NCBI GenBank assembly: GCA_012719085.1
Contig: JAAYBA010000478.1
Span: forward strand, 1-34,942
Direction: 5' to 3'
Origin: Planctomycetota bacterium
GTDB lineage: Bacteria > Planctomycetota > Phycisphaerae > Sedimentisphaerales > Anaerobacaceae
DNA: 34,942 nt
The translations under genes and the position numbers were made by a program. Shown piece after piece: positions 2,702 through 28,491 of the stretch. Position 1 is the first letter of the stretch, and the number at the start of each line of letters is the position of its first letter. The notes beneath the pieces are model-generated. The model saw only the letters and a list, made by a program, of their open reading frames with translations, was not told the DNA's origin and did not search any database.

Positions 2702-3035
2702 GGCGGCAAAATCTCTCACGCAGACGCTTGAGGCGAGCCGCGCCGTGTGACAGCCGGCTGCCCCGCGCATCCCCTGCGTAGCCAATACCGGCCGTCGGCT
2801 GTCAGAAAACTGGGCGAGCCGTATAGAATCCTGACACGATTCCGGTGACGCGCCATAAGAAGAAGGACCTGTCAACCGCCCTATCAGCCGCCACAGGGCC
2901 CTCCGACGCGTTCGCGGCCATCTGCCGCATGTCTCTGGCACGCCTGTTGCTATGGTACTGCCCAAGGCCCGGGCCGCACTCTGCATACGCCTAAGGCAAT
3001 CGGCCGCACCGGGCCAGTTGAGAGATGGAAACGTC
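2662..3035. other. Intergenic region before the TPR operon
   Basis: This 374-base gap holds the tail of the inverted repeat at 2658-2701, a CCATAAGA element at 2854-2861 resembling the repeats upstream of the first activator, and a textbook sigma-54 promoter at 2936-2951. No gene is supported here; the open frame running upstream of 3036 starts after the -12 element and before the predicted transcript start. Confidence 0.6.
2936..2951 (+). promoter_or_regulatory. Sigma-54 promoter for the TPR / second activator / fliLMN-flhA operon
   Basis: TGGCACGCCTGTTGCT matches the full sigma-54 consensus TGGCACG-N4-TTGCT with exact spacing. The predicted transcript start is near 2962, which rules out the ATG at 2952 as a start and supports 3036. 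The genes from 3036 to at least 8275 are closely spaced, so this is probably the operon's main promoter. Confidence 0.92.
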
Positions 3036-5591
3036 ATGGCAATGAAACGGCCACAACCAAGTCGCAAGAAGAAGATCGAGGCACAGACGCCGCTCGACGA
3101 CGAGCTCTTTGCGACCCCGGTCGACCGGCCGGAATACGGCGACGTCTTCGCCTCATTGCTCGATCTCGCTTCCGAGGTCGGCGTACCCGAGTACGGCGAT
3201 CCCATCGACGGCCCGATGACCTCGCCGCTGCGCCTGCCTCGTCCGCGATTCTCCAATATGCAGAAGGGCTTGTTCGCAGGAATCGTCTTCATCGGCGCCC
3301 TGGTGGCCTACGCTCTGCTTCGCGTCCTACCGTCGGAGTCGCAGCCCGATGGCCCCGCACAGGCAGGAGCTACGCAGAGCCAGTATACATCCTTTCAGCA
3401 GTCGTATACCGATTCACCGGCGCAACCGCCGTTGCAATCGGCCCAAGCTCCGGCCCCAACACCCGAGCCGGTCCCGCCGTTCGAGAGAACTCAGATCAGC
3501 CTGCCCGGCGTCGAGCCGCTTTCTTTGCAGATCGCCACCAAGCTCTATCTCAGCGCCGACTACGAAAGCGCGCTGGCCGCTTACGACAAGCTCTATCGCC
3601 GGCTTCCCCCGACGGAGGCTCAGCAGCCGTTACGCGACTTCCTGCTCCTGCGCATGGCCCTGTGCAGCAGGAATGTGGGCAACGCCCAACAGGCCGACAA
3701 CATGCTTCGGACCGTGTCCCTCAGCCGCCTTCCGATGCTTCGGGCCTTGGCGCGATATCATCAGAGCACCACTCTGGTACGGCGCGAACGCTTCCTCGAG
3801 GCGGCCACGCGGGCCTATCAAACCGTCGGCCTGGTCGATGTAGTGGACTATGACGAGACATGGCTTTCCGCTGTACAACGGCAATGCTCGTTCCTCGCGG
3901 CCGAGGCGCTGACCCGCAGCCTTCTGTCTCTCCGGGATGCCGACGGCGACCTGCCGGCCGAACTGTGGACCGAACAGCCCGACATCGACCCGTTCGTCAA
4001 TCTGGATGAGGCCCAACTGCGGGTCTTTCTGGCCTCGGGGGCCGAGAAACTCGACGAAGCGCTGCTGGCGCCCCAGATTCGTCCGGCCAAAGAAGACGGC
4101 CACTGGACGGTGATCTGCAACGGCGCTCCCATCGAGGAGCTGCTGTCGCGGTTCGCCACGAACACCGGGCACAATATTCAATGGCTCGACGACAGCAAGA
4201 CCGGCCTTGACGAAGAGACCATCCGACGGCGGCCGGCATACATCTACCTGCGCTCGGCGACGACCCAGCAGGTTATGACGATTGCCGCCGGCAGTGTCGG
4301 GCTGCTGGCCCGCATGGACGCGCGGCGGAACGTTCGCATCGTCGATCCGTCCACCTACTTCTCGCTGGCCGATCACACCGAACTGCTCGCCGAAGAATCG
4401 GTGTCCCTCTGGCAGCGGTTCCTTCTGAGCGCCGAGGACGACAAGCGCGTCCCCAGCGCCCATTTCGCCCTGGGACTTCTGCACACCGTACGCGAGCGAA
4501 CGGACGAAGCGATCGCCGAGTACAAATTGATCGCCAATCGGTTTCCGAAAGATGCGCTGGCTCCCCATGCCCTGTTGCATTCGGGCCGGCTCAAGGTCAC
4601 GCTGCGTGACTACGGGGGCGCCCAGACGGACCTTCAGCAGCTCGTCAACCTCTATCCGGAGACCGACCTGGCGGACCGCGCCTGCCTGTATCTGGCGGAC
4701 GCCACCATGAAGGCGGGACTGTACGAGAAGGCCACGAACCTGTATCGGAAGGTCTATAACCTCGGACTGTCGCATGACTCGCAAACGGAATCGTCTCTGG
4801 GGGCCGGACGCTGCTATTATGAGACCGGGCAATATAACGACGCCGCCACATGGCTGAGCCGATACGTCGCGCTGGCTCAGAACCAGAACCGTCGCGAGTT
4901 CCCCGCGGCTTGTCTGCTCCTGGGCAAGACCTACCTGGCACTCGAGAGGCCGCAACAGGCGCAGGCCGCTCTGAACCTGGCGCTTCGGGGCGATCTGTCC
5001 CGTCAACAGCACGTCGAGACCATCACCACTCTGGTCAAGACCTACATGCAACAGGAACTCTACGTCGAGGCCCTGAATATCCTCGAAGGCGCCAATGCAT
5101 GGCAGTTGTCGCAACAGGAAGCAGTCGAACTGCTGCTGATCCGCGCGAGGGTCCTCCGGTCGATCGGCCTTCAGAGTAAGGCGATCGCGATTCTCGCGGA
5201 GAAGAGTCAGTTTCTACCCAATTCCACTCTCAAAGGCAAAGTGGCGCTGGAGCTGGCCAACTGCTATGTCGACGGCGGCAACCTCGAGCAAGCCCACAAG
5301 ACGCTCAGTGAGATGCTGACGCTCGTCGAGGCCGGAGCGCTGGCCCAAGAGATCGGCTGTGAACTGGCGAGCATCTGTCTTCGCGTGGGCCAGCCGGAAC
5401 AAGCGATTTCCGTGTGCTCGCAACTTCTGGAACACACGGAGGACTCGGCGGAGCGAAGACAGATCCAGGCCATGCTGGCTGCGGCGTATCGCGAGAAGGG
5501 CCAATACGAACAGGCCGTCTCGGTCTTGCTCGAAGACCGAAGGACTTCTTCGCGCCCCGGCGACGTGCAGCCTGAGGGTAACAGACCGTGA
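3036..5591 (+). CDS. Membrane-anchored TPR protein with an STN/secretin-N-like insert
   Basis: The product is 851 residues if started at ATG 3036, chosen because the sigma-54 promoter transcript begins near 2962. After a charged cytoplasmic-looking N-terminus there is one membrane helix (GLFAGIVFIGALVAYALLRV, about residues 80-100), then a Pro/Gln-rich linker. TPR-like helical repeats begin near 165 (LYLSADYESALAAYDKLYRR). At about 355-437 a segment reading GAPIEELLSRFATNTGHNIQ, ending in a VRIVDP strand, resembles the STN domain of secretins and TonB receptors. TPR-like repeats then continue to the C-terminus (for example HFALGLLHTVRERTDEAIAEYK). I do not know a named family with this order. 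Its place at the head of a flagellar operon suggests an accessory factor for assembly in the periplasm or at the outer membrane (inference). It overlaps the next gene by 4 bases. Confidence 0.85.
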   Translation: MAMKRPQPSRKKKIEAQTPLDDELFATPVDRPEYGDVFASLLDLASEVGVPEYGDPIDGPMTSPLRLPRPRFSNMQKGLFAGIVFIGALVAYALLRVLPSESQPDGPAQAGATQSQYTSFQQSYTDSPAQPPLQSAQAPAPTPEPVPPFERTQISLPGVEPLSLQIATKLYLSADYESALAAYDKLYRRLPPTEAQQPLRDFLLLRMALCSRNVGNAQQADNMLRTVSLSRLPMLRALARYHQSTTLVRRERFLEAATRAYQTVGLVDVVDYDETWLSAVQRQCSFLAAEALTRSLLSLRDADGDLPAELWTEQPDIDPFVNLDEAQLRVFLASGAEKLDEALLAPQIRPAKEDGHWTVICNGAPIEELLSRFATNTGHNIQWLDDSKTGLDEETIRRRPAYIYLRSATTQQVMTIAAGSVGLLARMDARRNVRIVDPSTYFSLADHTELLAEESVSLWQRFLLSAEDDKRVPSAHFALGLLHTVRERTDEAIAEYKLIANRFPKDALAPHALLHSGRLKVTLRDYGGAQTDLQQLVNLYPETDLADRACLYLADATMKAGLYEKATNLYRKVYNLGLSHDSQTESSLGAGRCYYETGQYNDAATWLSRYVALAQNQNRREFPAACLLLGKTYLALERPQQAQAALNLALRGDLSRQQHVETITTLVKTYMQQELYVEALNILEGANAWQLSQQEAVELLLIRARVLRSIGLQSKAIAILAEKSQFLPNSTLKGKVALELANCYVDGGNLEQAHKTLSEMLTLVEAGALAQEIGCELASICLRVGQPEQAISVCSQLLEHTEDSAERRQIQAMLAAAYREKGQYEQAVSVLLEDRRTSSRPGDVQPEGNRP

Positions 5592-6697
5592 AAGTGGCCC
5601 ACCAGGTGTATCAGGACAAAAGACCGATGACCATGCAAATCGACGGACTCATGGTGAAGACGACCCGGTCTGCGAGCCGCGCCCGCTGCGATCGCCCCGG
5701 CGTCGACGACGCTGGCACCCGCATCCTGCGACCGAAGGCACAAGCGGCTACTCCACTCTCCATCGGGCTCGCGATCTTCTGCATGGCTCTGGGATCGGCG
5801 TCGCCGGAGACCACCTGGGGACAGTTCACTCCAGTTCCCTCGCCGAATCGTCGCAACGCGAAGGCACAGGCCAACGACGCCGCCCAGAGGCCGTCGCCCC
5901 CCCCCAGCACGGAGAGGCAATCGACACCGCCAAGCACCGAGAGCCCCGAGTATTCGTCGCCCGATGCGGACCACGCCGTGACCGGCCTGCGCAGCCGGAC
6001 AACGCCAACACCAGCACCGACGGAAGAAGACACCGACGCGGATCTGCCCTGGAGCACGGGCCTGACGCGTCGTCTCTGGGAAAATCGCATCCTGGCCCCC
6101 AATCCGAACGAAGACGCGGAGACCCGTGCGGCGATGGACGATCTGATCCAGAGGATTCGATCGGTGCGATTCGACGACGCTATGCCTCCAGCGGCTTCCG
6201 CTTCCGCGCAACCAGCGCCCATGGCCCAACCGAGCTCGGCTGTCAGGTCTCTGCAGGCGTCGCCGTCGGACGTAGACAAACCGGGCCCCGCGACGAGCGT
6301 CCCGGCCGAACCCGCCGCCGGCCTGACGGAGGCAATGCAGAAAAGGCTGGATCACGTGTTGCACGACCCCAATCAGGTCGGCGATCCGCTGGAGATGGCC
6401 GAACTGCTGTTCCTGAGCGGCCGCCCGACCGAAGCCACGGTCTTCTATGAAAAGGCCCTGGCGCGCACCCTGCCCAACGACTCCTCCATGGAGAACGACC
6501 GGGCGTGGATCCTGTTCCAACTGGGCAACTGCCTGCGTCATTCCGACATGGCACGGGCCAAAGAAATGTACATAAAACTCGTGTCCGAGTATCCGGCTTC
6601 CCCGTGGACCGAATTGGCCAAGGCCCATGGCCGGCTGATCACCTGGTATCAGACCGCCAAGCCACAGCAGTTCATGCCGGAACCGTCGCCGAAATGA
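5588..6697 (+). CDS. Secreted/anchored TPR-domain protein, unknown function
   Basis: A 369-residue protein whose GTG start overlaps the stop of the previous gene in a GTGA junction; an ATG at 5627 is an alternative start. A hydrophobic stretch (PLSIGLAIFCMALGSA, about 57-72) could be a signal anchor or late signal peptide. A long Pro/Ser/Thr-rich, probably disordered region follows to about residue 240. The C-terminal 110 residues look like TPR helices: EMAELLFLSGRPTEATVFYE, then LFQLGNCLRHSDMARAKEMY. Translational coupling to the large TPR protein suggests the two work together, perhaps as a complex in the envelope. No enzymatic motif is visible and I cannot name a family. Confidence 0.8.
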   Translation: MKVAHQVYQDKRPMTMQIDGLMVKTTRSASRARCDRPGVDDAGTRILRPKAQAATPLSIGLAIFCMALGSASPETTWGQFTPVPSPNRRNAKAQANDAAQRPSPPPSTERQSTPPSTESPEYSSPDADHAVTGLRSRTTPTPAPTEEDTDADLPWSTGLTRRLWENRILAPNPNEDAETRAAMDDLIQRIRSVRFDDAMPPAASASAQPAPMAQPSSAVRSLQASPSDVDKPGPATSVPAEPAAGLTEAMQKRLDHVLHDPNQVGDPLEMAELLFLSGRPTEATVFYEKALARTLPNDSSMENDRAWILFQLGNCLRHSDMARAKEMYIKLVSEYPASPWTELAKAHGRLITWYQTAKPQQFMPEPSPK

Positions 6698-6733: not shown

Positions 6734-8275
6734 GTGAGCAACACAGAAATCGACAAAGACAATAGACCGCAGGCGTCATACGAAAGCGTCAGTGTGCTGA
6801 TCGTTGAGAATGAGCGGGATACTGCCCGGCTCATGCTCGCGACGCTGGCGCGCAAAGGCGTCAGCGCGCAGTTGGCCGACAATGTCAAGGCCGCCCTGAC
6901 GGCTCTGGACAAACGCCGATATGACCTGGTCTTCCTGAGCACGGCCCTGAGCCATGCCCCGCATCAAGCGGACGGCTTCGATCTGTTGGAGACCATCCGG
7001 GCGGCCGCGCCCGAGATGCCCATCGTCATGGTCGCCGGCCCCCCGGACACGGGTGTCCCGGCGTGTGCCGATGCCAGCGAGCCAGCCGACGAAAACCACC
7101 TCCTGCGCCTCGGGACCGAGACGGCCGTCAAGGCCATTCAAGCCGGCTGTCGTGACTTCCTGGTCAAACCCCTCCGCCGGCAGACCATCGAGAATCTCCT
7201 CGAAACCCTGGTGCCCAACCACTGCGTGGCGACGACGACCTCTGCGCACGAAGGGGACCGCTGCCTCTACCAGATCGTCGGCAGAAGCCCCAAGCTCGTA
7301 CAGACCGTGACGCTGGCCGAGAGGATCGCGCCGACGTCCGTTCCTGTCCTGATCAACGGAGAAAGCGGAACGGGCAAGGAACTGGTCTCCCTGCTGATCC
7401 ATCACAAGAGCCGCCGGTCAATGGGCCCCTTCGTCCACGTCAACTGCGCCGCCCTCAGCGATACGCTGCTCGAAAGCGAACTCTTCGGCCACGAAAAGGG
7501 GGCCTTCACCGGCGCCTACACCCAGCGAAAGGGACGCTTCGAGAGGGCGCACGGCGGAACATTGCTGCTCGATGAAATCACTGAGACACCGCCCCAGTTC
7601 CAGGCCAAACTACTCCGTATCCTCGAGCAGCAGGAATTCGAAAGGGTCGGCGGCAGTGAGAACGTCCGGATCAACGTCCGGATCATCAGCACGTCCAATC
7701 GCGATCTCCTGCACGAGGTGCAGATGGGCCGCTTCCGCCAGGATCTCTACTACCGGCTCAGCGCCGCGCGAGTCGTGGTCCCGCCCCTGCGGGAGCGCCG
7801 CGAGGACCTGACCGATCTGGTATGGCACTTCGTCAATCTATACGCCCGGGAGACCCAGCGTCGCATTGCGCGTCTGGACCCGGCGATGATGAACATCTTC
7901 ACGGAGTATCCCTGGCCCGGCAACATCCGCCAGCTTCGCAACGTGGTGCTCACCAGCCTGATCCTCGGGGCCGGGCCTACCCTGTCGCTGGCCGATGTCT
8001 CCTGGCTGTTCGACGAGCTTCAGCCGCTGACGCAGCAAGGTCCGACGCATCGCGATACCACTGCGGCGATCGAAGTGCCCTCTGTGCCCGCCGAGCCGTC
8101 CCGTGTCGGCGGCATTCCGCTGGCCGACCTCGAACGTCAGGCGATCCTCGAGACCCTGCGTCAGACCAGCGGCAACCAGACCAAGGCCGCCAAGGTGCTC
8201 GGGATCAGCGATCGCACACTGCGCGAGAAGGTCCGCCGCTACCGCAAACGAGAATGCCTCCAGCCGGTCCCGTGA
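6734..8275 (+). CDS. Sigma-54-dependent activator with a degenerate receiver domain
   Basis: A 513-residue NtrC/AtoC-type regulator. The GTG at 6734 is chosen because AAAGGGAGA lies 7 bases upstream. The N-terminal receiver (about 19-155) lacks key residues: the acidic pocket reads VENE and the phosphoacceptor Asp is replaced by Ser (DLVFLSTAL, S69), while the Lys-Pro of DFLVKPL (about 144) remains. The AAA+ domain has Walker A GESGTGKE (about 210), a canonical GAFTGA loop (about 256-261) and Walker B LLLDEIT. The C-terminal Fis-type helix-turn-helix reads GNQTKAAKVLGISDRTLREK. It lies in the predicted sigma-54 operon directly before fliL, so it probably activates other flagellar sigma-54 promoters, as FlrC/FleR do, but perhaps without phosphorylation. 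Confidence 0.92.
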   Translation: MSNTEIDKDNRPQASYESVSVLIVENERDTARLMLATLARKGVSAQLADNVKAALTALDKRRYDLVFLSTALSHAPHQADGFDLLETIRAAAPEMPIVMVAGPPDTGVPACADASEPADENHLLRLGTETAVKAIQAGCRDFLVKPLRRQTIENLLETLVPNHCVATTTSAHEGDRCLYQIVGRSPKLVQTVTLAERIAPTSVPVLINGESGTGKELVSLLIHHKSRRSMGPFVHVNCAALSDTLLESELFGHEKGAFTGAYTQRKGRFERAHGGTLLLDEITETPPQFQAKLLRILEQQEFERVGGSENVRINVRIISTSNRDLLHEVQMGRFRQDLYYRLSAARVVVPPLRERREDLTDLVWHFVNLYARETQRRIARLDPAMMNIFTEYPWPGNIRQLRNVVLTSLILGAGPTLSLADVSWLFDELQPLTQQGPTHRDTTAAIEVPSVPAEPSRVGGIPLADLERQAILETLRQTSGNQTKAAKVLGISDRTLREKVRRYRKRECLQPVP

Positions 8276-8319
8276 ATGGATCGTGAGGCTTGACGAAAGC
8301 AACGAAGGACCCGAATCCT

Positions 8320-8889
8320 ATGGCCGAACCGCAAAAGACACCGAAAGACGAGCAGACGCCCGAACAGGAGACTCCGCCCAAGAAGGGCAAAGCCTCGAAG
8401 CTGCTGACCTGCCTGGTTCCGTTGCTGGCGGTCGTCCTGTGTGCGGCCGGCGGTTTCCTGATCGGACGGCTTTTCGGAACGCGCGGCCAGGCGCAGAACG
8501 TCTCAGCCGCCGAGCAACCCGACCCAACCGCTGCGCTGCCGCCGATCAAGGCGTCGGACGCCGGGTCAAGCTGGTACTACGACCTCGAACCCGTCGTGGC
8601 CAACCTCAACGAGCCGGGCGTCACACGATACGTTCGCGTCACACTGACGCTCGAAATCGACAGCCAACTGGCAGAGAAGGACGGCATCGGCTTTCTGGAA
8701 CAGCGCAAACCTCTTCTGAAGAACTGGCTGACGCTGTTCATCTCCAATCTGACCCTTGAAGACATTCGCGGAGAGAGGAACCTGCGTCAGGTGCAGAGCC
8801 AGATCGCCGAGACGTTCAACCAGGGGCTGTTCCCGAACGCCCAGCCGTGCGTCAAACGGATCCTGTTCAAGGAGTTGTCGATCCAATGA
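8320..8889 (+). CDS. fliL: Flagellar basal body-associated protein FliL
   Basis: A 189-residue single-pass inner-membrane protein. A Lys/Pro-rich cytoplasmic start is followed by a membrane helix (LLTCLVPLLAVVLCAAGGFL, about 28-48) and a periplasmic domain ending in FliL-type sequence: YYDLEPVVANLNEP, RYVRVTLTLEID, and a C-terminal VKRILFKELSIQ. FliL surrounds the stator units and supports torque under load. The ATG at 8320 follows GAAGGA; an in-frame TTG at 8290 is possible but its GAGG lies too close. The stop overlaps the start of fliM (ATGA), so the two are translationally coupled. Confidence 0.9.
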   Translation: MAEPQKTPKDEQTPEQETPPKKGKASKLLTCLVPLLAVVLCAAGGFLIGRLFGTRGQAQNVSAAEQPDPTAALPPIKASDAGSSWYYDLEPVVANLNEPGVTRYVRVTLTLEIDSQLAEKDGIGFLEQRKPLLKNWLTLFISNLTLEDIRGERNLRQVQSQIAETFNQGLFPNAQPCVKRILFKELSIQ

Positions 8890-9866
8890 CCGATCCGTCC
8901 GGCGCCAATCTGAATCGCGCACGCGTCCATCGACTGCTGGCGGCGGTCGGCTCGGCCCCCGCCCCGGTCGATACGACGTCGCCGGCGCAGCTTTACGACT
9001 GGCGCGACCCGCATTATTTCAACGACGACCATCGCAATCGTCTGGCCGCCCTTATGAGCCAGGTCGCGGCCGTGCTCGCCGCGCGTTGCGCCCACTTCTT
9101 CAACAGCGAGTTCAACGTCGTGCCGACCTCTGTCACACAGCACTTCGCGGGCGATCTGGGCCGACAGACCAATCTGGGGCAGGGCTTCTCGCTGGCCGTC
9201 GGTCCCGACGAGGAGCCGGCGTGTGGATTCGTGGCCGTCGGGGCCGCCGTGGCAATGGACTGGGTCACGCAACTGCTGGGCGACTCGGAATCCGACGGCG
9301 ACGCGGATCGCAGTCTCTCATCGCTCGAGGAGTCGCTGCTGTCGAACCTCATTGGGGCGATGGCCGATGGGTTTGTCGCTGCGCTGCGGCCTCATCAGAA
9401 TCTCAAACCGGCCGACCGTGTGAGCCGGGGCCCCGCCGCTGTTACATTCGAGCCGACCGACCCGGTCTGCAAGATCGTGTTCCAGATCGGCAAGGCCCAG
9501 GCGGAGTCCTCCTCCGAGATCGTCTTCATCCTGAGCGCCCCGGTGCTGGCCCCGGCCGTCGGCAAGACGATCGCGACGAAGGCAACGGTACCCCAGGACG
9601 AACTGGCGCGCCTGCTGATGGAGCACGTGCATCAGATGCCCGTGTCGATCACTGCACGGTTGGGCTCGATGCGTCTGTCGTTCGAGGAGGTCCTCGACCT
9701 GGCGTCGGGAGACGTCCTGCTGATCGACAAACCTCTCGACGAACCGGTCGATCTGACCATTCACGGCCAAGTCGTCTTCCGTGGCCGTCCGGCCCAGTCG
9801 GCCGGGCAGTACGCCGTGTTCATCACCGAAAGCGCCACCGAGGCCGGGCCGCAAAGCGCCCGCTGA
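8886..9866 (+). CDS. fliM: Flagellar motor switch protein FliM
   Basis: A 326-residue C-ring component starting at the ATGA overlap with fliL. The middle domain is CheC-like, and the last 75 residues form a FliN-like SpoA domain (VSITARLGSMRLSFEEVLDL, then GDVLLIDKPLDEPV and a final GQYAVFI). The N-terminal helix that normally binds CheY-P (LSQxEIDALL) appears as LNRARVHRLLAAVG, keeping the hydrophobic pattern but not the acidic residues. FliM sets the rotation direction and links the MS ring to FliN. Order fliL-fliM-fliN is the classical one. Confidence 0.92.
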   Translation: MTDPSGANLNRARVHRLLAAVGSAPAPVDTTSPAQLYDWRDPHYFNDDHRNRLAALMSQVAAVLAARCAHFFNSEFNVVPTSVTQHFAGDLGRQTNLGQGFSLAVGPDEEPACGFVAVGAAVAMDWVTQLLGDSESDGDADRSLSSLEESLLSNLIGAMADGFVAALRPHQNLKPADRVSRGPAAVTFEPTDPVCKIVFQIGKAQAESSSEIVFILSAPVLAPAVGKTIATKATVPQDELARLLMEHVHQMPVSITARLGSMRLSFEEVLDLASGDVLLIDKPLDEPVDLTIHGQVVFRGRPAQSAGQYAVFITESATEAGPQSAR

Positions 9867-9888
9867 GTGCAGGAAAGGAAATCCGGCT

Positions 9889-10260
9889 ATGCCCGAAACC
9901 GCCGAAGCACCAACCCAGAACGAATCCCAGCAGCTACCCGCCGACGACAGGACGAGAGCCCAGTCCGTGGAGTTCCCCCAGGCTCCGGAGGGCGAGGCGG
10001 CCGCATCCACCGGCCAGCTCGATATCCTTCTCGATATGGACGTGCCCGTCACGGTCGCACTGGGCACCACCGAGGTACCCGTTCGACGATTGCTGCAACT
10101 GGGACCGGGCGCTGTGCTCAAGCTCGAAAAACCCATCGAAGCCCCCGTCGATCTATACCTCAAGGACTCAAAGTTTGCCGAGGCCGAGGTGGTGGTCGTG
10201 GACAATCGCTTCGCCGTGCGCATCAAGACGATCACCGGCGCCGGTGGGTCGGAAGATTAG
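9889..10260 (+). CDS. fliN: Flagellar motor switch protein FliN
   Basis: A 123-residue protein; the ATG at 9889 follows AGGAAAGGAA. Residues 1-45 are a Gln/Glu/Ala-rich, probably disordered extension. The rest is a SpoA/FliN domain: LDILLDMDVPVTVALGTTEV, LLQLGPGAVLKLEKP, AEAEVVVVDNRFAVRI. FliN forms the lower C-ring together with FliM and binds FliH to bring export cargo to the type III gate. It lies 22 bases after fliM and 43 before flhA. Confidence 0.95.
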   Translation: MPETAEAPTQNESQQLPADDRTRAQSVEFPQAPEGEAAASTGQLDILLDMDVPVTVALGTTEVPVRRLLQLGPGAVLKLEKPIEAPVDLYLKDSKFAEAEVVVVDNRFAVRIKTITGAGGSED

Positions 10261-10303
10261 CGGGGCCACAGACACAGGAATCAAAAGGAGCTGAACCGTC
10301 TCT

Positions 10304-12439
10304 ATGGCATCCGACCGTCCCAAAACGTCGCCGCATTCCGTCGGCAAGCCCGAGGCCCTCCGGGACCTGGCCGGCAGTCCTCTGGGCACACACAGCAACA
10401 TCATCATGGCCGTCGGCCTGGTCGCCGTGCTCGCGACCCTGATCATTCCGCTGCCCACCACGGTGCTCGACATGCTCCTGGCGTGCAGCATCTCGCTGGC
10501 CATTGCCGTACTCATCGTAACGCTCTCGTCGAAAGAGCCGCTCGAATTGTCCACCTTCCCCTCCCTGCTGCTGTTCGTCACGCTGTTTCGACTCTCGTTG
10601 AACGTCGCCTCGACCCGTCTGATTCTGCTCCATGGCGACGCCGGCAAGATCATCCACACCTTCGGCGGCTTCGTCGCCGGCGGCAGCTTCGTCGTCGGCC
10701 TGGTCATCTTCCTGATCCTCGTCATCATTCAGTTCATCGTGATCACCAAGGGCGCCGAGCGCATCAGCGAAGTGTCGGCGCGATTCACCCTCGATGCCAT
10801 GCCCGGCAAACAGATGGCCATCGACGCCGATCTCAACGCCGGCGCCATCACCGAGAGCCAGGCCAATGAACGCCGCGCCAAGATCGTCAAAGAGAGTGAG
10901 TTCTACGGCGCCATGGACGGGGCCAGCAAGTTTATCCGTGGCGACGCCAAGGCCGGCCTGATCATCACCGGCGTCAACATCGTCGGCGGCATCGCGATGG
11001 GCTACTCGCACGGCATGAACATCACTGACGCCATCAAGACCTACTCGATTCTCTCGATCGGCGACGGCCTGGTCAGCCAGATTCCCTCACTGATCATCTC
11101 GGTCAGCTCGGGCTTCCTCGTCACCAAGATCAGCTCAACCCAAAGCGTGGGCCAGGACATCTCCAGGCAGTTTCTCAAGGCCGGTCAGCCCCTCCTTGCG
11201 GCCGCCTGTATCATCGGGGCCATGGCTTTCGTCCCCGGCATGCCCAAGCTTCAGTTCCTGGTCCTGGGCGCCGCCGTCGGACTGATCGGACGAATGGCCA
11301 CCCGGAACGAGAAGAAACCGCTGTCGGCTCCGGAGTCCCCCGTCAAGAAGACCGACAAGGAGCCGGTCGAAGATCTTCTGGACATCGATCGCATCTCCGT
11401 CCACGTCGGCGTGCGTCTGATCACCCTGGTGGACCCGCGTAAGAGCAACACGATCTTCGAGCGAATCGGGGCCCTGCGTCGGCAGTTCGCCCAGCACCTG
11501 GGAATCGTCATTCCCCTGGTCCGCCTGCGGGATGATCTGAATCTCGAACCGAACGCCTACGAGATTCGCCTCTCGGAGATTCCCGTGGCCAAAGGCCACC
11601 TCGAACCGGAGATGTTCCTGGCGATGGACCCGGGGGTCATCCGCGAGAAGGTCGACGGCATCCCGACAACGGAGCCGGTATATGGACTGCCCGCCACGTG
11701 GATCTCCGCCAGCAAGAAGGAGGCCGCCGAGTTGAGCGGCTACACCGTCATCGACCCGGAGAGCGTCTTCATCACTCACCTGTCCGAAACAGTCAAACGC
11801 CATGCCGACGAACTGCTGACCCGCGAGGACGTCCAACTGCTCGTCGACCGCCTCCGCAAGAACCAGCCGTCGCTGGTCGGAGAAGTCGTCGGCACCGGCG
11901 GCGACGTCTCGATCGCCTTGCTCCAGCGGGTCCTCAAGAACCTGCTCAAGAGCGGCATTCCGGTCCGCGAACTGACGGCGATACTCGAATCTCTCGCGGA
12001 AAACGCATCGAAGACGAAAAACGCCAACACGCTGACCGAGGTCGTCCGCAAATCCCTGAGCCGAACGATCACCGAACTGTACAAGAACGAGGCCGACAAG
12101 ATCATCGCCATCACGTTCGATCCGGCCTTCGAGCACCAGTTGACCGCCGGCCTCAGCCAGGACGGCGGCGAGCTGACGCTGAGTCTCCCGGCCGAACTCG
12201 CCATGGAACTGAACCGAACCACCGCTCAGACATGGCGATCGGCGATGGATCAGGGCAGCGAGAAGCTCGTGCTGCTCTGTGACGCACGGTTGCGGGCGCC
12301 GCTGGCCCGCATGCTCGCGCGAACGCTGCCGATGTTGCCCGTTGTGGCCTACGACGAGATCGTCCTGGGCACCGAAGTCGAATCGATCGAGACGATCGCG
12401 CCCCAGGAGAAGGCGGCCCCGGCCTACGCACAGACCTGA
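10304..12439 (+). CDS. flhA: Flagellar type III export gate protein FlhA
   Basis: A 711-residue member of the FlhA/InvA/LcrD (FHIPEP) family. The N-terminal half has about eight membrane helices and the conserved cytoplasmic loop (FVITKGAERISEVSARFTLD, DAMPGKQMAIDADLNAG), and the C-terminal half is the nonameric cytoplasmic ring that receives chaperone-substrate complexes. The ATG follows AAAAGGAG. FlhA uses the proton-motive force to drive export of rod, hook and filament proteins. Normal family length is about 690-710, so it is intact. FlhB, FliP, FliQ and FliR are not in this window, so the export genes are split between loci. Confidence 0.98.
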   Translation: MASDRPKTSPHSVGKPEALRDLAGSPLGTHSNIIMAVGLVAVLATLIIPLPTTVLDMLLACSISLAIAVLIVTLSSKEPLELSTFPSLLLFVTLFRLSLNVASTRLILLHGDAGKIIHTFGGFVAGGSFVVGLVIFLILVIIQFIVITKGAERISEVSARFTLDAMPGKQMAIDADLNAGAITESQANERRAKIVKESEFYGAMDGASKFIRGDAKAGLIITGVNIVGGIAMGYSHGMNITDAIKTYSILSIGDGLVSQIPSLIISVSSGFLVTKISSTQSVGQDISRQFLKAGQPLLAAACIIGAMAFVPGMPKLQFLVLGAAVGLIGRMATRNEKKPLSAPESPVKKTDKEPVEDLLDIDRISVHVGVRLITLVDPRKSNTIFERIGALRRQFAQHLGIVIPLVRLRDDLNLEPNAYEIRLSEIPVAKGHLEPEMFLAMDPGVIREKVDGIPTTEPVYGLPATWISASKKEAAELSGYTVIDPESVFITHLSETVKRHADELLTREDVQLLVDRLRKNQPSLVGEVVGTGGDVSIALLQRVLKNLLKSGIPVRELTAILESLAENASKTKNANTLTEVVRKSLSRTITELYKNEADKIIAITFDPAFEHQLTAGLSQDGGELTLSLPAELAMELNRTTAQTWRSAMDQGSEKLVLLCDARLRAPLARMLARTLPMLPVVAYDEIVLGTEVESIETIAPQEKAAPAYAQT

Positions 12440-12457: not shown

Positions 12458-12697
12458 ATGGTGCTACAAACACGACCCATTGCGTTCACGACGGCCGTCA
12501 TTGCGTTCTTCGTTCTGAGCATTGTCGGAAGCGTCGTGGGCCTGCCGCCCTGCACCTGCAGCAAGCGGGCCGTGCTGGGAGCGCTCGCCGCCTACATGGC
12601 CGCCTCCGTCGCCGTACGCGCAGTCAATGCGATCCTGACCCAAGCGATGATCGCCAGCCAGACAAGCAAGGACCATGCCGGTGCCCACAAGAACTGA
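12458..12697 (+). CDS. Small membrane protein of unknown function
   Basis: The product has 79 residues with two hydrophobic segments: FTTAVIAFFVLSIVGSVVGL (about 11-30) and AVLGALAAYMAASVAVRAVN (about 38-57), separated by a CTCSKR turn. The ATG at 12458 is preceded by GAGGAG at slightly long spacing, 18 bases after flhA, and its end overlaps fliA by 23 bases. It occupies the place where flhF/flhG often sit between flhA and fliA. I do not recognise a family. Co-transcription with flhA and the two-helix layout suggest a membrane part of the export or motor machinery (inference). Confidence 0.7.
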   Translation: MVLQTRPIAFTTAVIAFFVLSIVGSVVGLPPCTCSKRAVLGALAAYMAASVAVRAVNAILTQAMIASQTSKDHAGAHKN

Positions 12698-13505
12698 AGA
12701 ACGTCCCGAGACAACCGACACGACAGCGGTCGAGCAGACCTCGGAGAGGAGCGACCCGCTCAAGGCCGTCGCGCTGCGCGCCTATTCGGGCCACCGACAT
12801 CGTCCGATCGGCGATGATGAGATCGTCGCTCTTCTGCCGATGGTCCGCCGGATCGCGCACCGCGCCGCCAGCTATCTGCATCCGCCCTTGTCGTTCGACG
12901 ACCTCGTCTCGGCCGGAACGGTCGGACTGCTCAAGGCCGCCCGCGATTTCGACGCCTCTCACCAAGCCGAGTTCGCAACGTACGCCTATATCCGGATCAA
13001 GGGGGCTGTGCTCGACGAGCTGCGCCGGGCCTCGCCGCTGCCATCCAACGTCAACCGGCAGGTCCGCCTGGCGCTGCGCGTCAGTCAGCAGATGACTCAG
13101 AGGACCGGAAACCCGCCGACCGACGAGCAGCTCGCCCAGGAACTGGGCATCTCCGTTGACGAAGTAGGAACGCTCTTCGAGAACGCCCGGGCTCAGCATT
13201 TCGTCTCTATCGACGGCCTTGCCGAGGAGCGGCCGGCCCTCGGGGAGATTCTGGCCTGCGCCGATGCGGCGGGACCCGACGCCCGCCTCGAAAAGACCGA
13301 GATGCTCACGAAGCTGACCGCAGCCATGCAGGAACTCGACTCACGTCGGCTTCAGATCGTCGTGCTCTACTACCACAAACACCTGACGATGAAGCAGATC
13401 GCCGACCTGCTCGAAATCACCGAGTCCCGCGTCAGTCAGTTGCACGCCAGTGCCCTGGCTATTCTTTCCGGGAAATTGGGAGAATACAGCGATGACGGAC
13501 AGTGA
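12675..13505 (+). CDS. fliA: RNA polymerase sigma factor for flagellar genes, FliA/WhiG (sigma-28) type
   Basis: A 276-residue sigma-70-family factor. Region 2 includes the helix around SFDDLVSAGTVGLLKAARDF and ATYAYIRIKGAVLDELRRAS, the latter diagnostic of FliA/WhiG. Region 3 follows (PTDEQLAQELGISVDEV), and region 4 ends with LTMKQIADLLEITESRVSQL, which reads the -35 element. It directs late flagellar genes from promoters like the one proposed at 15427. It starts inside the end of the small membrane protein, with AAGGA just before the ATG, and its 3' end overlaps the next small gene by 14 bases. Confidence 0.95.
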   Translation: MPVPTRTEERPETTDTTAVEQTSERSDPLKAVALRAYSGHRHRPIGDDEIVALLPMVRRIAHRAASYLHPPLSFDDLVSAGTVGLLKAARDFDASHQAEFATYAYIRIKGAVLDELRRASPLPSNVNRQVRLALRVSQQMTQRTGNPPTDEQLAQELGISVDEVGTLFENARAQHFVSIDGLAEERPALGEILACADAAGPDARLEKTEMLTKLTAAMQELDSRRLQIVVLYYHKHLTMKQIADLLEITESRVSQLHASALAILSGKLGEYSDDGQ

Positions 13506-16673: not shown

Positions 16674-18071
16674 TTATCCTTCGTCGTCGGAATCGGGCGG
16701 CGGGGTCTTCTTGAGCGGCGCGGTCCAGAGGTAGACGGTGTGATTGATGTAGCTGCCGTCCTCGGTCATCTCGACGACGTCGTCTGGCTCGACGCCTTTC
16801 ATGTCGAAATCGTGCGAAACAATCCGCGAGCCGGGCTTGAGCTTCTCCAACTGGGGGATGAGCTTCACGTTCAGGCTGGGCAGCAGATACAGTGTCACGA
16901 CGTCGGCGCCGCTCAGATCGAGCGTAAAGATGTCCTTCTGCTCGATGGTGACGAGGTGGCCGACACCGTGCGCCTCGACGTTTGCAAGCGACTCGGCCAC
17001 GCGCTGCGGGTCGATGTCGTAGCCGAAGGCCCTACACCCGAAGCGTTCGGCGGCAGTGACGACGATCCGCCCGTCGCCGCAACCAAGGTCGTAGACGATG
17101 TCGCCGGGCTTGACCTGGGCCATCTCCAGCATCTTGTCCACTACGATCTGCGGGGTCGGCACATAGACGACGTCGGGCTTGCGCGAGGCGACCATCAGGG
17201 GCGGGCGCGTATCGGCCCGAGTCAATGCGATTCCGTCCAGCGGCGGCTCGATCTTGCCTGGGTCCAGCCCGAACGCCTCCAGAATGGTCGGCGCGATATC
17301 CTGGCGACGGCCGTCGCGATAGACCACCTTATTGTCGGTGACCAGGAAGGCCGGGGCGACGAAACTTTGGTCGGCCTCGTTCGGACCGTGGCCGGCGGTG
17401 ACGTACACCTGGGTCTTGCCGGTCAATCCGAGCGACTTGATCTTGTCCATGATCCGTCCGGTCCACCGATCGTTAGAGATCAGGGCGTCCTTGTACTGCC
17501 TGGAGGTTCGGCCGTACGTACGCGCGGCGCTGTCGGCTTGCGCGAAACGCACGAGAAGGAAGAAGGGCCCGTCCTTGTACTTGTCGAGCAGTTCGACGGC
17601 CCGGGCTCCGACCCGCTCGTCGCGCAGCAGACCCTCTTCCGCAATTTCGAGGACCGCCGGGCGCAATCCTGCCGGCGTCTGCTGCCGGCCGATCACCGCG
17701 GCGGTAACGAATTTATCCGGGCCGAAGTGATTTTCCAGCCGCTCGAAGAGGCTTACGCCCTTGCCGCCGGCCCCGGAGGCCCCGTCGCCCGAACCAACTG
17801 CTTTGGGCAGATAGCCCGTGAGGATCTCCTTCCAGGCCCCATCGGTGTTGACGATACCCTCACCGTGGATCCGCACAAGAACGCCCCGATCGATGAGCTG
17901 CTGCAGACCGGGCAGTTCCTCGCGTGTCAGCGACTGATCGACGTGCTCGCGTTCGGCTCCGTCCCATCCGACCAGAACGATGTTCTGCGGGCCGGCGGCC
18001 ACACCGATGACCGGCGACAGAACCATCAAAAGACCGACACACAGCGATAGACGGACGATTCTACCTCGCAT
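16674..18071 (-). CDS. Secreted fusion: alkaline-phosphatase/phosphodiesterase-like domain plus SAM methyltransferase
   Basis: A 465-residue protein with a Sec signal peptide (LSLCVGLLMVLSPVIGVAAG) starting at ATG 18071 behind AGAGGAG. Residues about 28-290 resemble the alkaline phosphatase/type I phosphodiesterase superfamily: IVLVGWDGAERE, a Thr at nucleophile spacing in NTDGAWKEILTG, and a late VYVTAGHGPNE. The usual DHG metal motif appears as GHG, so metal binding may be altered. Residues about 310-455 form a class I methyltransferase: VYDLGCGDGRIVVTAA for SAM, YDIDPQRVAES, and LYLLPSLNVKLIPQLEKLKP. Single-domain secreted versions of this methyltransferase are common in planctomycetes; the fusion is unusual. 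The substrate is unknown. Confidence 0.85.
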   Translation of the reverse strand: MRGRIVRLSLCVGLLMVLSPVIGVAAGPQNIVLVGWDGAEREHVDQSLTREELPGLQQLIDRGVLVRIHGEGIVNTDGAWKEILTGYLPKAVGSGDGASGAGGKGVSLFERLENHFGPDKFVTAAVIGRQQTPAGLRPAVLEIAEEGLLRDERVGARAVELLDKYKDGPFFLLVRFAQADSAARTYGRTSRQYKDALISNDRWTGRIMDKIKSLGLTGKTQVYVTAGHGPNEADQSFVAPAFLVTDNKVVYRDGRRQDIAPTILEAFGLDPGKIEPPLDGIALTRADTRPPLMVASRKPDVVYVPTPQIVVDKMLEMAQVKPGDIVYDLGCGDGRIVVTAAERFGCRAFGYDIDPQRVAESLANVEAHGVGHLVTIEQKDIFTLDLSGADVVTLYLLPSLNVKLIPQLEKLKPGSRIVSHDFDMKGVEPDDVVEMTEDGSYINHTVYLWTAPLKKTPPPDSDDEG

Positions 18072-18235
18072 CGTTTGCTCCTCTCAACAGGGTCTTTGGA
18101 CTTCGAATCGCGATTCGTCCGGGGACGTCTGCCGTCCGGAATCTACAACGGACCCTGCCACGCTAACGAACGCGGCCTCAGAACGTCAATAGGGAAAAAT
18201 CCCGCCGATCTGACCTCGAACGGGCCTGTTGGGCG

Positions 18236-19606
18236 TCACCGTGGCGTCTGGCCGGTGCCCTGGAAGCGATGGGCCCTCTCGTAATAGTGCAGCACCGCCG
18301 AATCATTGAAGGCGGCCAGGCCGGAGGCGTTCCGCAGCCGCACGCCGTCCAGCGTCCGCGACCGCGACAGGGCCACGTAAACGTGGCCCGGAACAAAATT
18401 GACGTGCGAGCCATCGATATTGACGACATCGAGCGTCATGCCCTGGGCCTTGTGCACCGTCAGGGCGTAAGCCGGCACGATCGGATACTGGACTACGGCG
18501 AACTTGACCTGTTCTTTATCCTTGCGGGAATCCCACACCAGTTCCTGGAACTCGATGGCGTTGAGCCGCCGCGTGCCAAGTCCGTTTCGGTCGAATGCCA
18601 CGTCGATCCAATAGGGCATCTCGGTGTCGGGCGCATACTCGGTGCAAATGTCGGTCACGGTGCCCAGGTCGCCGTTGACGAGGTCCTCGTGGTTCTGGAT
18701 GCACAGGACCCGCATTTTCTTCTTGATCTGAAGCGTGGCCTTGGCTCGCGTGTGGCCCTGGAGCCACTGGGCCGCCTCCTCGCGGTCCCCCTTGGTTACC
18801 TGGCAAACGCTATGGACAGGCGGAGCATCGATCTGGTCGATCCGCCTCTGGTTGTGTGCGTCCGCCTGACGATTGGTACCGAAGAGGACAGGGTAGTCGG
18901 GATCGAATTCGCGATGGTTGTTCTTGAGAATATCCACATCAACCCGGCCGAGTCGGAGGCCCTTGAGGAACTCGACGAAGTGGGGCTCGGCCTGTCGCAA
19001 GACGGTTTGCAGGTCGATCAACTCGAAATCGGCGAATGCCGTGCTGTAGAATGCAAAGTCAGGCAGACCCTCCTCGTTGCGCGGCACGGGCGGAAGCTGG
19101 AAGAAGTCGCCCACCACCAGCAGCCCCGTCTCGGGCTCGACGCGCTGGAGGAACCGGTCGAAGGTGACGCGATCGACCATGCTGATTTCGTCGACGATGA
19201 TGACGCGCGCGCGTTCGAGCTTGCGCCGCCCCGATTCGATGCGCCGATTCGAGTCGGGCATTTCCACTCTCGGCAGGAATGCGGCGGCGTGCAGGGTGGA
19301 CGGCCCCTGGCAGTATCGCGAGTTGTGGATGCCGGTCTCGTCGCGCAACTGACAGGCGGCGATGCCCGTCGAGGCGGCCAGCACGACATGCTTGCCGCGT
19401 TGCACGAGTTGGTTGGCGATTCGCCGGACGAGAGTCGTCTTTCCCGTACCCGCGCCGCCCGACAAAAAGATCCGCCCGCCCGCCAGCAGACCCTCGACCA
19501 CGTCCGCCAGCAGGACGGGGTTTCGCGCATCGTGATACGGATATGGATGAACCAGGACGCTCGACTTCGCCTCGTCTGTGTCGGACTTCTTCGCGGATCT
19601 GCCCAA
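18236..19606 (-). CDS. PIF1/RecD-like superfamily 1 DNA helicase
   Basis: A 456-residue ATP-dependent 5'-3' helicase of the PIF1/RRM3/RecD2 type. Motifs in order: Walker A GGAGTGKTTLVRR, motif Ia VLAASTGIAA, Walker B ARVIIVDEISMVD, motif III LLVVGDFFQLPPVP, motif V YALTVHKAQGMTLDVVNID and motif VI VYVALSRSRTLDGVRL. No other domain is present, so it is a compact form. No ATG is usable; the TTG at 19606 is chosen because GAGGAG lies 8 bases upstream, and a TTG at 19624 would add six residues. PIF1 helicases unwind G-quadruplexes and D-loops, and a short cytosolic one here is probably housekeeping. It is not obviously linked to its neighbours. Confidence 0.9.
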   Translation of the reverse strand: MGRSAKKSDTDEAKSSVLVHPYPYHDARNPVLLADVVEGLLAGGRIFLSGGAGTGKTTLVRRIANQLVQRGKHVVLAASTGIAACQLRDETGIHNSRYCQGPSTLHAAAFLPRVEMPDSNRRIESGRRKLERARVIIVDEISMVDRVTFDRFLQRVEPETGLLVVGDFFQLPPVPRNEEGLPDFAFYSTAFADFELIDLQTVLRQAEPHFVEFLKGLRLGRVDVDILKNNHREFDPDYPVLFGTNRQADAHNQRRIDQIDAPPVHSVCQVTKGDREEAAQWLQGHTRAKATLQIKKKMRVLCIQNHEDLVNGDLGTVTDICTEYAPDTEMPYWIDVAFDRNGLGTRRLNAIEFQELVWDSRKDKEQVKFAVVQYPIVPAYALTVHKAQGMTLDVVNIDGSHVNFVPGHVYVALSRSRTLDGVRLRNASGLAAFNDSAVLHYYERAHRFQGTGQTPR

Positions 19607-19635
19607 AGCGCGTGCTCCTCGCAAGGGTGTGCGGA

Positions 19636-20571
19636 CTACCGGCCGATCCGTTGTCGGATGTAGTCCTGGTACAGGGTCAGGATGTCACGGTCCGAGGCCT
19701 CGGTCGTGACGACGAATCGCGCGCGGGCCTTGACGGTCTGGCCCGCCTGGATATCTCGACCGAACAGCGACGGGTAGAGCGAGTAGTGCGTCTCGCCTTC
19801 GTACGGCGTGGCGATCGCGAAGCAGTCGGTCACAGGGCTCATCACAACAACTCCCAGGCTCTTGTCGGTGCTTCGCCGCAGACACAAAGGCGCGGCCATC
19901 TGAGGCATGACGACCCAATTCACCGGATAGGGCTCCTTGCGCCAACGTCCGTCGCGGATCATCCCCAGGACACCGTCGTCTCTTGGAGACATCTGCCAGT
20001 CGCCCCGCGACTTGACGGCAAGCATGAAGCCGGGCTTGCCCTCGGCGTCCGGATCGGCGGCAACGTAGACGTAAGGAGAGGGCAAGGCTTCATGGAAATA
20101 CGAGGCGAGGAAGACCTCGAAATCGTCCAGATCTTCACAGGCCTTCACCGTCGTCTCCAGATCGAGGGTCGCCGGCCCGGCCCAGCGATAGACGGCGATC
20201 AGTTCGAAAGGCCGATCGGGCGCGGCGGGCCGGGAGACTTCGACCGCGCCGTCGGGCAACAGCTTCGACGTGCTCGGCCAGTCCCACGCCATCGCACCGT
20301 ATCGTTTGTTCGTTGCCAGGACCCGATAGTAGCTGAAGATGCCCGCGCCCTGGTCCAGACGGATCCCCGATGGAACGTGCACGACGGATGCCAGGCCCTG
20401 AGCCTTCCCGCTCGGCTGGAGTACGCCACGAAGGACGCCCGTGTCGAATCGGTATTCGCCGTTCTCGCCGCTCTGGAATCTGAGCCCGGCTTCTTCGCCG
20501 GCCGAGGACACCGAGAGGACAAGCAGTAGAATGGGAAATGCCACAAGAGTTTTCACATACCGAATCAACAT
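19636..20571 (-). CDS. Secreted protein of unknown function
   Basis: The product has 311 residues; the ATG at 20571 follows AAGGAGGACATGGC. A Sec signal peptide (VAFPILLLVLSVSSAGEE) suggests export. The mature part looks beta-rich (SGENGEYRFDTGVLRGVLQP, FELIAVYRWAGPATLDLETT, VKARARFVVTTEASDRDILT), resembling carbohydrate-active or galactose-mutarotase-like beta-sandwich proteins, but I do not recognise a family. It lies 18 bases downstream of the M29 peptidase and is probably in its operon. Confidence 0.7.
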   Translation of the reverse strand: MLIRYVKTLVAFPILLLVLSVSSAGEEAGLRFQSGENGEYRFDTGVLRGVLQPSGKAQGLASVVHVPSGIRLDQGAGIFSYYRVLATNKRYGAMAWDWPSTSKLLPDGAVEVSRPAAPDRPFELIAVYRWAGPATLDLETTVKACEDLDDFEVFLASYFHEALPSPYVYVAADPDAEGKPGFMLAVKSRGDWQMSPRDDGVLGMIRDGRWRKEPYPVNWVVMPQMAAPLCLRRSTDKSLGVVVMSPVTDCFAIATPYEGETHYSLYPSLFGRDIQAGQTVKARARFVVTTEASDRDILTLYQDYIRQRIGR

Positions 20572-20589
20572 GCCATGTCCTCCTTCCGT

Positions 20590-21594
20590 TCAATCGAAGC
20601 AAAATCGGCCTTCGTCCATGAGGGTCCGGCCGTCCACGTAGATGCTCGGAGCGATGATGACGCCATCGACGTGCGCGACACTGTCCCAGGTGGCGCCCGT
20701 CTTGGTGGGGTAAGGACTGCCGAAGGCAATGTGCACGCCAGGGAACTTCTCATCCTGGAGAAGGTTATAGATCAGCTTGGTCAGGCCGATATTGGTGCCG
20801 ATAGCAAACTCGCCCACACGATCGCTGTTCTCATCGGTCTCGAACACGTACGCCGCCAGTTCCCGGCGGAGTTGCGCGTTGTCGCAGTCCAGGCTCTCGC
20901 GGAGTGCTCGGCCCTCACGGACATCCACGATCACAGGCGTATCCGCCAGCGACGCATACCGCTCGGTGAAGTAATCGCCCAGGCAGCCGTCGATCACGAT
21001 GTGGCCGTCCACCTTCGCCGGCGCCGTGAACACCTCGCCGTCAGGCAGATTCTTCCAGCGACCAGGTTGAATGTCACCATCACTGATGAGCCACTTCAGG
21101 TCGGGACTGAATCGGGCGGTGAAATCGCATCCTTGGGCGGTCACAACCCGAATCGCTTCGGCGTCTCTGACGCTCTCATAGACCCATTTGCTGACCCTCT
21201 GGATCTCGGCGTAGTCGCTGCACATGCCGTCGGTCATGATCTGCGGCGTGATGCCGATCATGTGCGCGTGACGCAGCTTCGGATTCGCATCGATCGCCTG
21301 GAGCATAGGCCTTCGGAAGGTTTGCAGTTCGCCTTCGGCGCCTTGGGCGGCATAGATACTGACGTCCGCAGCCTGGAGGGCTTCACCTATAGCGACGGGG
21401 AAGGCAACGGGCCGAGCCCCGAGGTCTTCCATCAAGAAGAACTGAACGTCGCCGGCAATCTTCTCGGCCGCAACGCGCAGCGCCTCCCCAATCTCGTTCG
21501 TCTGGTGGTCGGTGATGACGACCACGCGTTCGCCCGGCTTGATCCGAAGACAGTTGTCAACGACCTGCCTGACACCTTGTTGGATGGTTCCCAT
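20590..21594 (-). CDS. M29-family (AmpS-type) metalloaminopeptidase
   Basis: The product has 334 residues; the ATG at 21594 is chosen because GAGGAGAACTGG precedes it, and the longer frame upstream is not homologous. The sequence follows the thermophilic metalloprotease M29 pattern: LRIKPGERVVVITD near the start, a central RFSPDLKWLISDGDIQPGRW, NLPDGEVFTAPAKVDGHIVI (conserved NLPxGEVFxxP), NIGLTKLIYNLLQDEKFPGV, IAFGSPYPTKTGATWDSVAH and HVDGVIIAPSIYVDG. The Glu of GEVF and the His/Asp residues near the C-terminus are the expected metal ligands. It cleaves N-terminal residues of peptides in the cytoplasm. The family is usually 370-410 residues, so this is a slightly short form. Confidence 0.87.
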   Translation of the reverse strand: MGTIQQGVRQVVDNCLRIKPGERVVVITDHQTNEIGEALRVAAEKIAGDVQFFLMEDLGARPVAFPVAIGEALQAADVSIYAAQGAEGELQTFRRPMLQAIDANPKLRHAHMIGITPQIMTDGMCSDYAEIQRVSKWVYESVRDAEAIRVVTAQGCDFTARFSPDLKWLISDGDIQPGRWKNLPDGEVFTAPAKVDGHIVIDGCLGDYFTERYASLADTPVIVDVREGRALRESLDCDNAQLRRELAAYVFETDENSDRVGEFAIGTNIGLTKLIYNLLQDEKFPGVHIAFGSPYPTKTGATWDSVAHVDGVIIAPSIYVDGRTLMDEGRFCFD

Positions 21595-21648
21595 GGTCCA
21601 GTTCTCCTCATTTCGGATCGTGTGGCAGGCAGATGCAAAAATCAAAAA

Positions 21649-21725
21649 GCAAAGATCAAAATGGCGGAATCGCCGCAACGCGGTGATGACTTCCTCAGTT
21701 TTGCATTGTGCCGTTTGATCTTTGC
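21649..21725. repeat. Imperfect long inverted repeat (GCAAAGATCAAA arms)
   Basis: GCAAAGATCAAA at 21649-21660 pairs perfectly with TTTGATCTTTGC at 21714-21725, and a nearby ATGCAAAA (21633-21640) also finds TTTTGCAT inside the loop. The A/T-rich arms stand out in this GC-rich region. It lies between the M29 peptidase start and the glycoside hydrolase end. It may be a dispersed hairpin element rather than a terminator, as no T-run follows on the minus strand. Confidence 0.5.
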
Positions 21726-21743
21726 ATTTCCGCAGCGTGCTTC

Positions 21744-22865: not shown

Positions 22866-22870
22866 GGTCT

Positions 22871-23848: not shown

Positions 23849-23916
23849 CTTCGTCTCCTTAAGAGCGTTTCGAAAAAAGATCGTTGCCTCAGACGGGCCT
23901 CAGCGGTGCCCGACAC

Positions 23917-25230: not shown

Positions 25231-25360
25231 CATGTCTCCTTCGTTCGATCTGCCTGTCATGGACCCGGGTTTCTGCATCGAATCAAGGTTTCCTGTAGAT
25301 TGCGCCTGAGCCGGTTATGATACTCCCTGAGTCGCCCAAATTCAAGTCGCAGCCATAGGC

Positions 25361-25376
25361 CGTGCCTCCCGGCACG
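25361..25376. repeat. Small hairpin between paralogs 1 and 2
   Basis: CGTGCC at 25361-25366 pairs with GGCACG at 25371-25376 across a TCCC loop, just downstream of the stop of paralog 2 (minus strand). No T-run follows, so a weak terminator or processing site at best. Confidence 0.3.
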
Positions 25377-25399
25377 ACACGGTAAAGGGGGTCCTCCCG

Positions 25400-26782: not shown

Positions 26783-26825
26783 GGTGCCTCCCTTTCACTG
26801 GAGGTCTGTGGCGTGCAAGAAGAAC

Positions 26826-26858: not shown

Positions 26859-26881
26859 AAATCGGTAATGAAGCTGGGGAA

Positions 26882-28474: not shown

Positions 28475-28491
28475 ATTGAGACCATCCTTGC

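Follow-up and report, generated by a model that had tools for sequence, protein, structure and literature searches.

A membrane-anchored TPR protein with an STN/N0-like domain, linked to one flagellum type of the Phycisphaerae, is a candidate stator scaffold

Most of the diversity among flagellar motors lies in periplasmic scaffolds that determine stator number and torque, and the parts of these scaffolds escape simple homology searches because TPR sequences drift. In Campylobacter the inner-membrane-anchored TPR protein PflB, which carries a beta element mid-chain, forms a complex with the exported PflA that brings in FliL and 17 stators (PMC12222027, PMC11870540). Stator assembly or rotation depends on TPR proteins in other bacteria too, on FlcA and BB0236 in the spirochaete collar and on MotK in Cereibacter (PMC7990780, PMC10954123). 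Feng and co-workers examined TPR genes in the vicinity of flagellar clusters as candidate PflA/PflB homologues, and pilus-derived PilQ-like domains have been reported from the Campylobacterota motor (PMC11870540). We analysed a 34,942-nucleotide stretch of planctomycetal DNA (the window) in which a gene for an 851-residue protein, here termed P1, lies in a flagellar gene cluster. The initial annotation had proposed P1 as part of an undescribed envelope module. In the open-access literature we found no description of P1, of any flagellar TPR protein with an STN domain or of tandem MotB in this group. As far as searched the word undescribed therefore holds for the P1 family and its STN domain, while TPR motor scaffolds as such are known (PflA/PflB, FlcA/BB0236, MotC/MotK).

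Frame translation, Pfam and AlphaFold place P1 at positions 3036-5591 of the plus strand (coding part 3036-5588, stop at 5589-5591) and give it a TM-TPR-STN/N0-TPR layout. In an AlphaFold model made with 28 homologues, whose folded parts mostly reach pLDDT 80-96, an N-terminal tail (3036-3254), disordered over residues 1-69, precedes a single membrane helix (residues 74-96; 3255-3323), both also seen in the homologue comparison, and a disordered linker joins the helix to the first helical repeats. An N-terminal TPR/helical array (residues 164-342; 3525-4061) is followed by an STN/secretin-N0-like domain (residues 356-436; 4101-4343) and by a C-terminal TPR superhelix (residues 444-838; 4365-5549) that was recognised by Pfam (TPR_19, E=1.3e-19) and fold search as well as in the model, the chain ending helical and then disordered. 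A hydrophobic segment occupies the position of the membrane helix in 65 of 70 homologues, the remainder being mostly truncated. The earlier description of P1 as a membrane-anchored protein of 851 residues with two TPR arrays is confirmed. We infer that the single helix lies in the inner membrane, the short tail being cytoplasmic and the bulk of the protein periplasmic. The tail contains an acidic motif, VFAGDEDFYK.L, at 33 of 61 loci; in many P1 proteins it lies ahead of the membrane helix, often in the form ELFAG...VFAGDEDFYKLL, and it is altered in the genus of the window and absent or changed in families f16 and f17. This motif is likely to be a binding site for a cytoplasmic partner. A fold search with the whole protein returned generic eukaryotic and designed TPR proteins and, among the matches listed, no flagellar scaffold protein, an absence that is uninformative on relatedness.

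The STN claim rests on fold and not on profile, because the Pfam STN model (PF07660) matched neither the whole of P1 at E<=1 nor any of 27 isolated domain sequences at E<=10. The related-looking TcpQ model (PF10671) was matched by 15 of the 27 isolated domains, with a best E of 5e-6, and the P1 of the window scores 14.5 against its curated cut-off of 27. A profile search of PDB sequences with the domain gave a sole result, a chance ribosomal match, which we rejected. Residues 356-436 were modelled by AlphaFold with the b-a-b-(a)-b-a-b-b order of the STN/secretin-N0 fold of about 80 residues, mostly at pLDDT 85-94 in the full-protein model with a weaker linker near residues 381-400, compared with a weak pLDDT of 66 for the domain modelled alone. 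Foldseek with the isolated domain placed secretin N0 domains (XcpQ, GspD, EscC, PilQ, InvG) and DotD in its top rows and also matched the FoxA and FpvA signalling domains. The best structural match was the N0 domain of GspD (4jtm; VIA, Z=7.7 over 78 residues at 3.0 Å), although a Z under 8 could by itself reflect a common arrangement and phage hub domains match the P1 domain about equally well. Given these phage matches and the moderate domain-only model, an STN/N0-like fold is the appropriate strength of claim. Of the STN-like segment at about 355-437 in the initial annotation, the predicted fold stands, at 356-436, while its Pfam profile found no match; structure prediction, the check proposed there, returned an STN/N0-like fold and so did not overturn the assignment. 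N0 domains of secretion systems are placed in rings and touch inner-membrane partners, and the GspC-GspD and InvG-PrgHK complexes are among the entries structurally matched by the P1 domain.

Upstream of P1 we identified a sigma-54 (-24/-12) promoter, TGGCACGCCTGTTGCT (2936-2951, plus strand), a perfect TGGCAC-N5-TTGC site; of 62 loci, 57 have a site with at most one mismatch 5′ of P1, compared with 0.7% of shuffled sequences. It had been singled out as the best sigma-54 promoter, and its perfection and conservation are evident, but the first rank is a tie, because a motif scan found a second perfect site at 733-748 on the minus strand, serving the divergent flgD. Downstream lies the second TPR protein, TPR2 (5588-6697, plus strand; probable start 5627 or 5651), with a signal-peptide-like N-terminus, a proline-rich linker and a C-terminal TPR region giving weak Pfam matches. 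The coupling of P1 to this protein, pointed out in the initial annotation, recurs throughout: TPR2 directly follows P1 in every examined locus with both genes, and 61 of 62 TPR2 proteins have a signal-peptide-like hydrophobic start.

The gene order in the window begins on the minus strand with the hook cap gene flgD (255-635), part of a divergent hook/ring gene group, and continues on the plus strand with a sigma-54 activator (1219-2661), P1, TPR2, an FlbD-like sigma-54 response regulator (6734-8275; profile match), the stator-associated protein FliL (8290-8889; Pfam), the C-ring proteins FliM (8847-9866) and FliN (9889-10260), the export gate protein FlhA (10304-12439) and a FliA/WhiG-type sigma-28 factor (12675-13505; both by profile match). 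Where the upstream sequence is long enough, the activator nearly always stands just 5′ of P1. The order activator-P1-TPR2-FlbD-FliL-FliM-FliN-FlhA recurs, within the reach of the contigs, in the Sedimentisphaerales families f1, f4 and f7; in the f6 locus FlbD was not detected between TPR2 and FliL, and in f16/f17 activator-P1-TPR2-FlbD is followed by FliF-FliG-FliH-FliI...MotA-MotB1-MotB2-FliL-FliM. An ORF at 8756-10294 (512 amino acids, without homology) was rejected as a spurious frame, rich in arginine, that overlies FliM and FliN and is broken by a stop in the sister genome. Both flgH and flgI are found on the side of the flgD group in the sister genome G004. In nearly all relatives, FlhA-negative ones included, there is a larger protein that matches FlgI, the P-ring protein, over its positions 2-228; these FlgI-like ORFs of about 510-700 amino acids (for instance G000:C147:2243-2893) belong to a non-flagellar FlgI-like family. 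Downstream the flagellar cluster adjoins a minus-strand block of sugar-degradation genes (16674-34942) encoding a GH127 arabinofuranosidase, a GH5/GH10-like enzyme and three GFO/IDH/MocA oxidoreductases.

P1 is linked to flagella, a conclusion that we regard as practically certain. Among 99 relatives, 65 carry both P1 and FlhA, 12 FlhA only, 22 neither and none P1 only. Eleven of the 12 with FlhA alone belong to family f5; the twelfth, G002, is a gapped assembly whose flagellar region is a scaffold with runs of N, and we rejected it as a case of FlhA without P1. In 297 genomes of the class, all 68 with a strong P1 match have FlhA, and 177 have FlhA without P1. The presence/absence comparison proposed in the initial annotation thus found no P1 gene in any genome lacking FlhA, in either set. 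In a phylum-wide sample strong P1 matches were confined to the Sedimentisphaerales, weak matches (E 1e-4 to 1e-8) in genomes beyond the two P1 groups being dropped as they span only 50-100 TPR residues; named homologous records come from Sedimentisphaerales/Phycisphaerae metagenome-assembled genomes. Matches to truncated FlhA-like paralogues (as in G045) were not counted as flagella. One FlhA paralogue, directly after flhB (L134:12661-14448) and also found near G045:C72:12764, G093:C72:86015 and G027:C324:79332, retains of FlhA no more than the membrane half at the N-terminus (E=7e-56), which is followed in the same chain by a MinD/tyrosine-autokinase-like domain at the C-terminus (TIGR01007, E=9e-9).

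In a tree of 64 FlhA sequences, drawn with a midpoint root for display only, the 21 from P1 genomes form a single clade with support of 100/100 and a long stem, and the other Phycisphaerae FlhA, including those of f5 of the same order, sit elsewhere with Planctomycetota of other classes. The Phycisphaerae contain two separate flagellum lineages, and f5 has the other type, in which the genes are ordered differently and P1 is absent. P1 thus tracks flagellum type and not simply species, and this strongly supports its being part of that flagellar machine.

The same genomes have an unusual stator. At least two MotB_plug matches are present in 65 of 68 P1 genomes versus 11 of 177 other FlhA-positive genomes (Fisher p ~1e-43, from counts uncorrected for shared ancestry), and wherever loci of P1 genomes were read, two motB-like genes, motB1 and motB2, stand in tandem behind motA. 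The genome of the window carries its own pair on contig C11 (L138:1569-3052), and further tandem loci are L132, L133, L134, L135, L136, L139, L140, L112 and L117. Peptidoglycan is bound through the GH[TAS] and NRRVEI-like motifs of the OmpA-type domain. The C-terminal GH[TAS] motif was found in 0 of 33 P1-type MotBs versus 8 of 9 single MotBs, and the NRRVEI-like motif in 0 of 33 versus 7 of 9, the set of single MotBs being small (n=9); of six P1-type MotBs, five have OmpA Pfam scores of 17-27 bits and the sixth has 36, compared with 45 for the f5 MotB. Judged by these motifs, both MotB1 and MotB2 of the P1 lineage have lost peptidoglycan binding determinants. Between fliI and motA lies a gene for a membrane/coiled-coil protein (L134:5813-6544, L117:11722-12438, L112:15408-16127) with weak matches to FlbB of the spirochaete collar (E 0.019, 1.5e-4 and 0.46, respectively), a candidate E-ring (FlgY/MotE/FlbB) protein.

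Among assembly, anchoring and placement, the functions suggested in the initial annotation, we favour stator anchoring. Since P1 and TPR2 share a topology pair and gene company with PflB/PflA-type systems, we propose with moderate confidence that they build a periplasmic scaffold, anchored in the inner membrane, on which the stators are seated, analogous to PflB/PflA and to the spirochaete collar; the flagellar link comes from genomics and this role is one that we infer. P1 would be held in the inner membrane by its one helix, and its TPR superhelix, together with the exported TPR2, would build a ring or a spoke-and-rim scaffold round the MS ring on which FliL and MotA/MotB1/MotB2 stators could be seated. 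The TPR grooves may bind linkers of partner proteins, contacts with TPR2 and the stators being expected, and the STN/N0 domain may pack subunits against one another or dock on the motor. Because both MotBs appear to have lost their peptidoglycan-binding motifs, such a scaffold could stand in for part of the anchoring normally gained through binding of MotB to peptidoglycan. A more far-reaching version, which we think unlikely, would be a new motor architecture in which a MotB1/MotB2 heteromer without the usual peptidoglycan grip is held by an inner-membrane TPR-STN-TPR ring, its secretin-type N0 module recruited independently of the pilus-derived parts of the Campylobacterota.

TPR arrays are generic, and the position of P1 and TPR2 between two sigma-54 regulators fits a regulatory role too. 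The main rival to a scaffold is a membrane-spanning assembly checkpoint, in which the periplasmic TPR-STN part would sense completion of rings or rod and the tail would signal to FlbD or to the sigma-54 activator, much as the STN domains of FecA and FpvA signal to anti-sigma factors. The two regulators flank P1/TPR2 in almost all loci that are long enough to show it, the acidic motif of the tail is conserved in many of them, and STN is a signalling domain in the TonB receptors that the fold search also returned. Regulators however also adjoin structural genes for simple co-expression, the tail motif is altered in the genus of the window and absent or changed in f16/f17, the large TPR superhelices suggest scaffolding, and the tie between P1 and tandem MotB would be left unexplained, so that we hold a checkpoint to be unlikely. 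A part in building the outer rings or in penetrating the envelope, the STN/N0 domain docking on the P/L-ring (FlgI/FlgH) or on outer-membrane components and guiding the rod through a thin wall, seems to us decidedly improbable: N0 domains do belong to outer-membrane channel proteins, and flgH and flgI stand in the divergent gene group and are present in nearly all P1 genomes, but FlgH and FlgI are also present in the flagellated f5 genomes that lack P1, so the P/L rings do not need P1, which is moreover tethered to the inner membrane.

The remaining two readings take P1 out of the motor proper. As a TPR protein with a single TM, P1 resembles FimV/HubP, which have a LysM in the periplasm and a FimV C-terminal domain in the cytoplasm and are linked to polar machines, and it could be imagined as a landmark placing the flagellum at a pole; yet the FimV_Cterm match (E=0.001, 19.1 bits) lies under the cut-off of 30.65 and is of the generic TPR kind, Pfam finds no LysM in P1, and the topology is the reverse of that of FimV, the TPRs being predicted in the periplasm, which makes such a role very improbable. 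It is more improbable still that P1 is a general envelope protein merely located in a flagellar operon. YbgF/CpoB and PorW are indeed the best family and PDB matches of its TPR part and suggest a CpoB/BamD/PorW-like protein, but all of these scores fall under the family cut-offs, and the strict co-occurrence with FlhA, P1 being absent from every genome without it, disfavours the reading.

P1 is a scaffold candidate of the Planctomycetota that can be recognised by sequence. It goes with a single flagellum type and an unusual two-MotB stator, and the system would make it possible to test directly if stators can be anchored by a protein scaffold in place of the cell wall. It would also be a further flagellar motor with a secretin-type module, next to the Campylobacterota motor with its pilus-derived domains (PMC11870540). 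The collar proteins FlcA and BB0236 (FlcD) are TPR proteins that stator assembly requires and that belong to a scaffold close to the inner membrane, which resembles what is proposed for P1; unlike P1 they have no STN domain reported in the text consulted, and P1 genomes, unlike spirochaetes, have P/L-rings and presumably external flagella. TPR2 is like PflA, MotK and MotC in being an exported TPR protein encoded beside an inner-membrane-anchored one, but is shorter (~260-450 amino acids), and no Pfam match to the N-terminal AMIN-like beta-sandwich of PflA and MotK was found in it. The domain of P1 shares its predicted b-a-b-b-a-b-b fold with secretin N0, STN, DotD and VirB7 domains (GspD, XcpQ, EscC, PilQ, DotD, FpvA and FecA being structural matches). 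In contrast to secretins and TonB receptors, P1 has neither a secretin channel nor a TonB plug or barrel, its Pfam families being of TPR type only and the rest of the chain helical repeats; the domain is instead inserted within the TPR solenoid of an inner-membrane protein. By description P1 is close to PflB of the Campylobacter/Helicobacter proximal-disk rim, which comes from a different phylum and is of similar length (~820-850 amino acids). PflB has one TM at its N-terminus and a TPR array behind it, as found in P1 by Pfam, AlphaFold and homologue comparison. In both proteins the periplasmic TPR array is broken mid-chain by a beta element (PMC11870540, PMC12222027, PMC7990780). PflB is linked to FliL and the stators, a link suggested for P1 by its gene neighbourhood, and where PflB has a two-strand antiparallel beta pair closing onto its C-terminus, P1 carries a whole STN/N0 domain.
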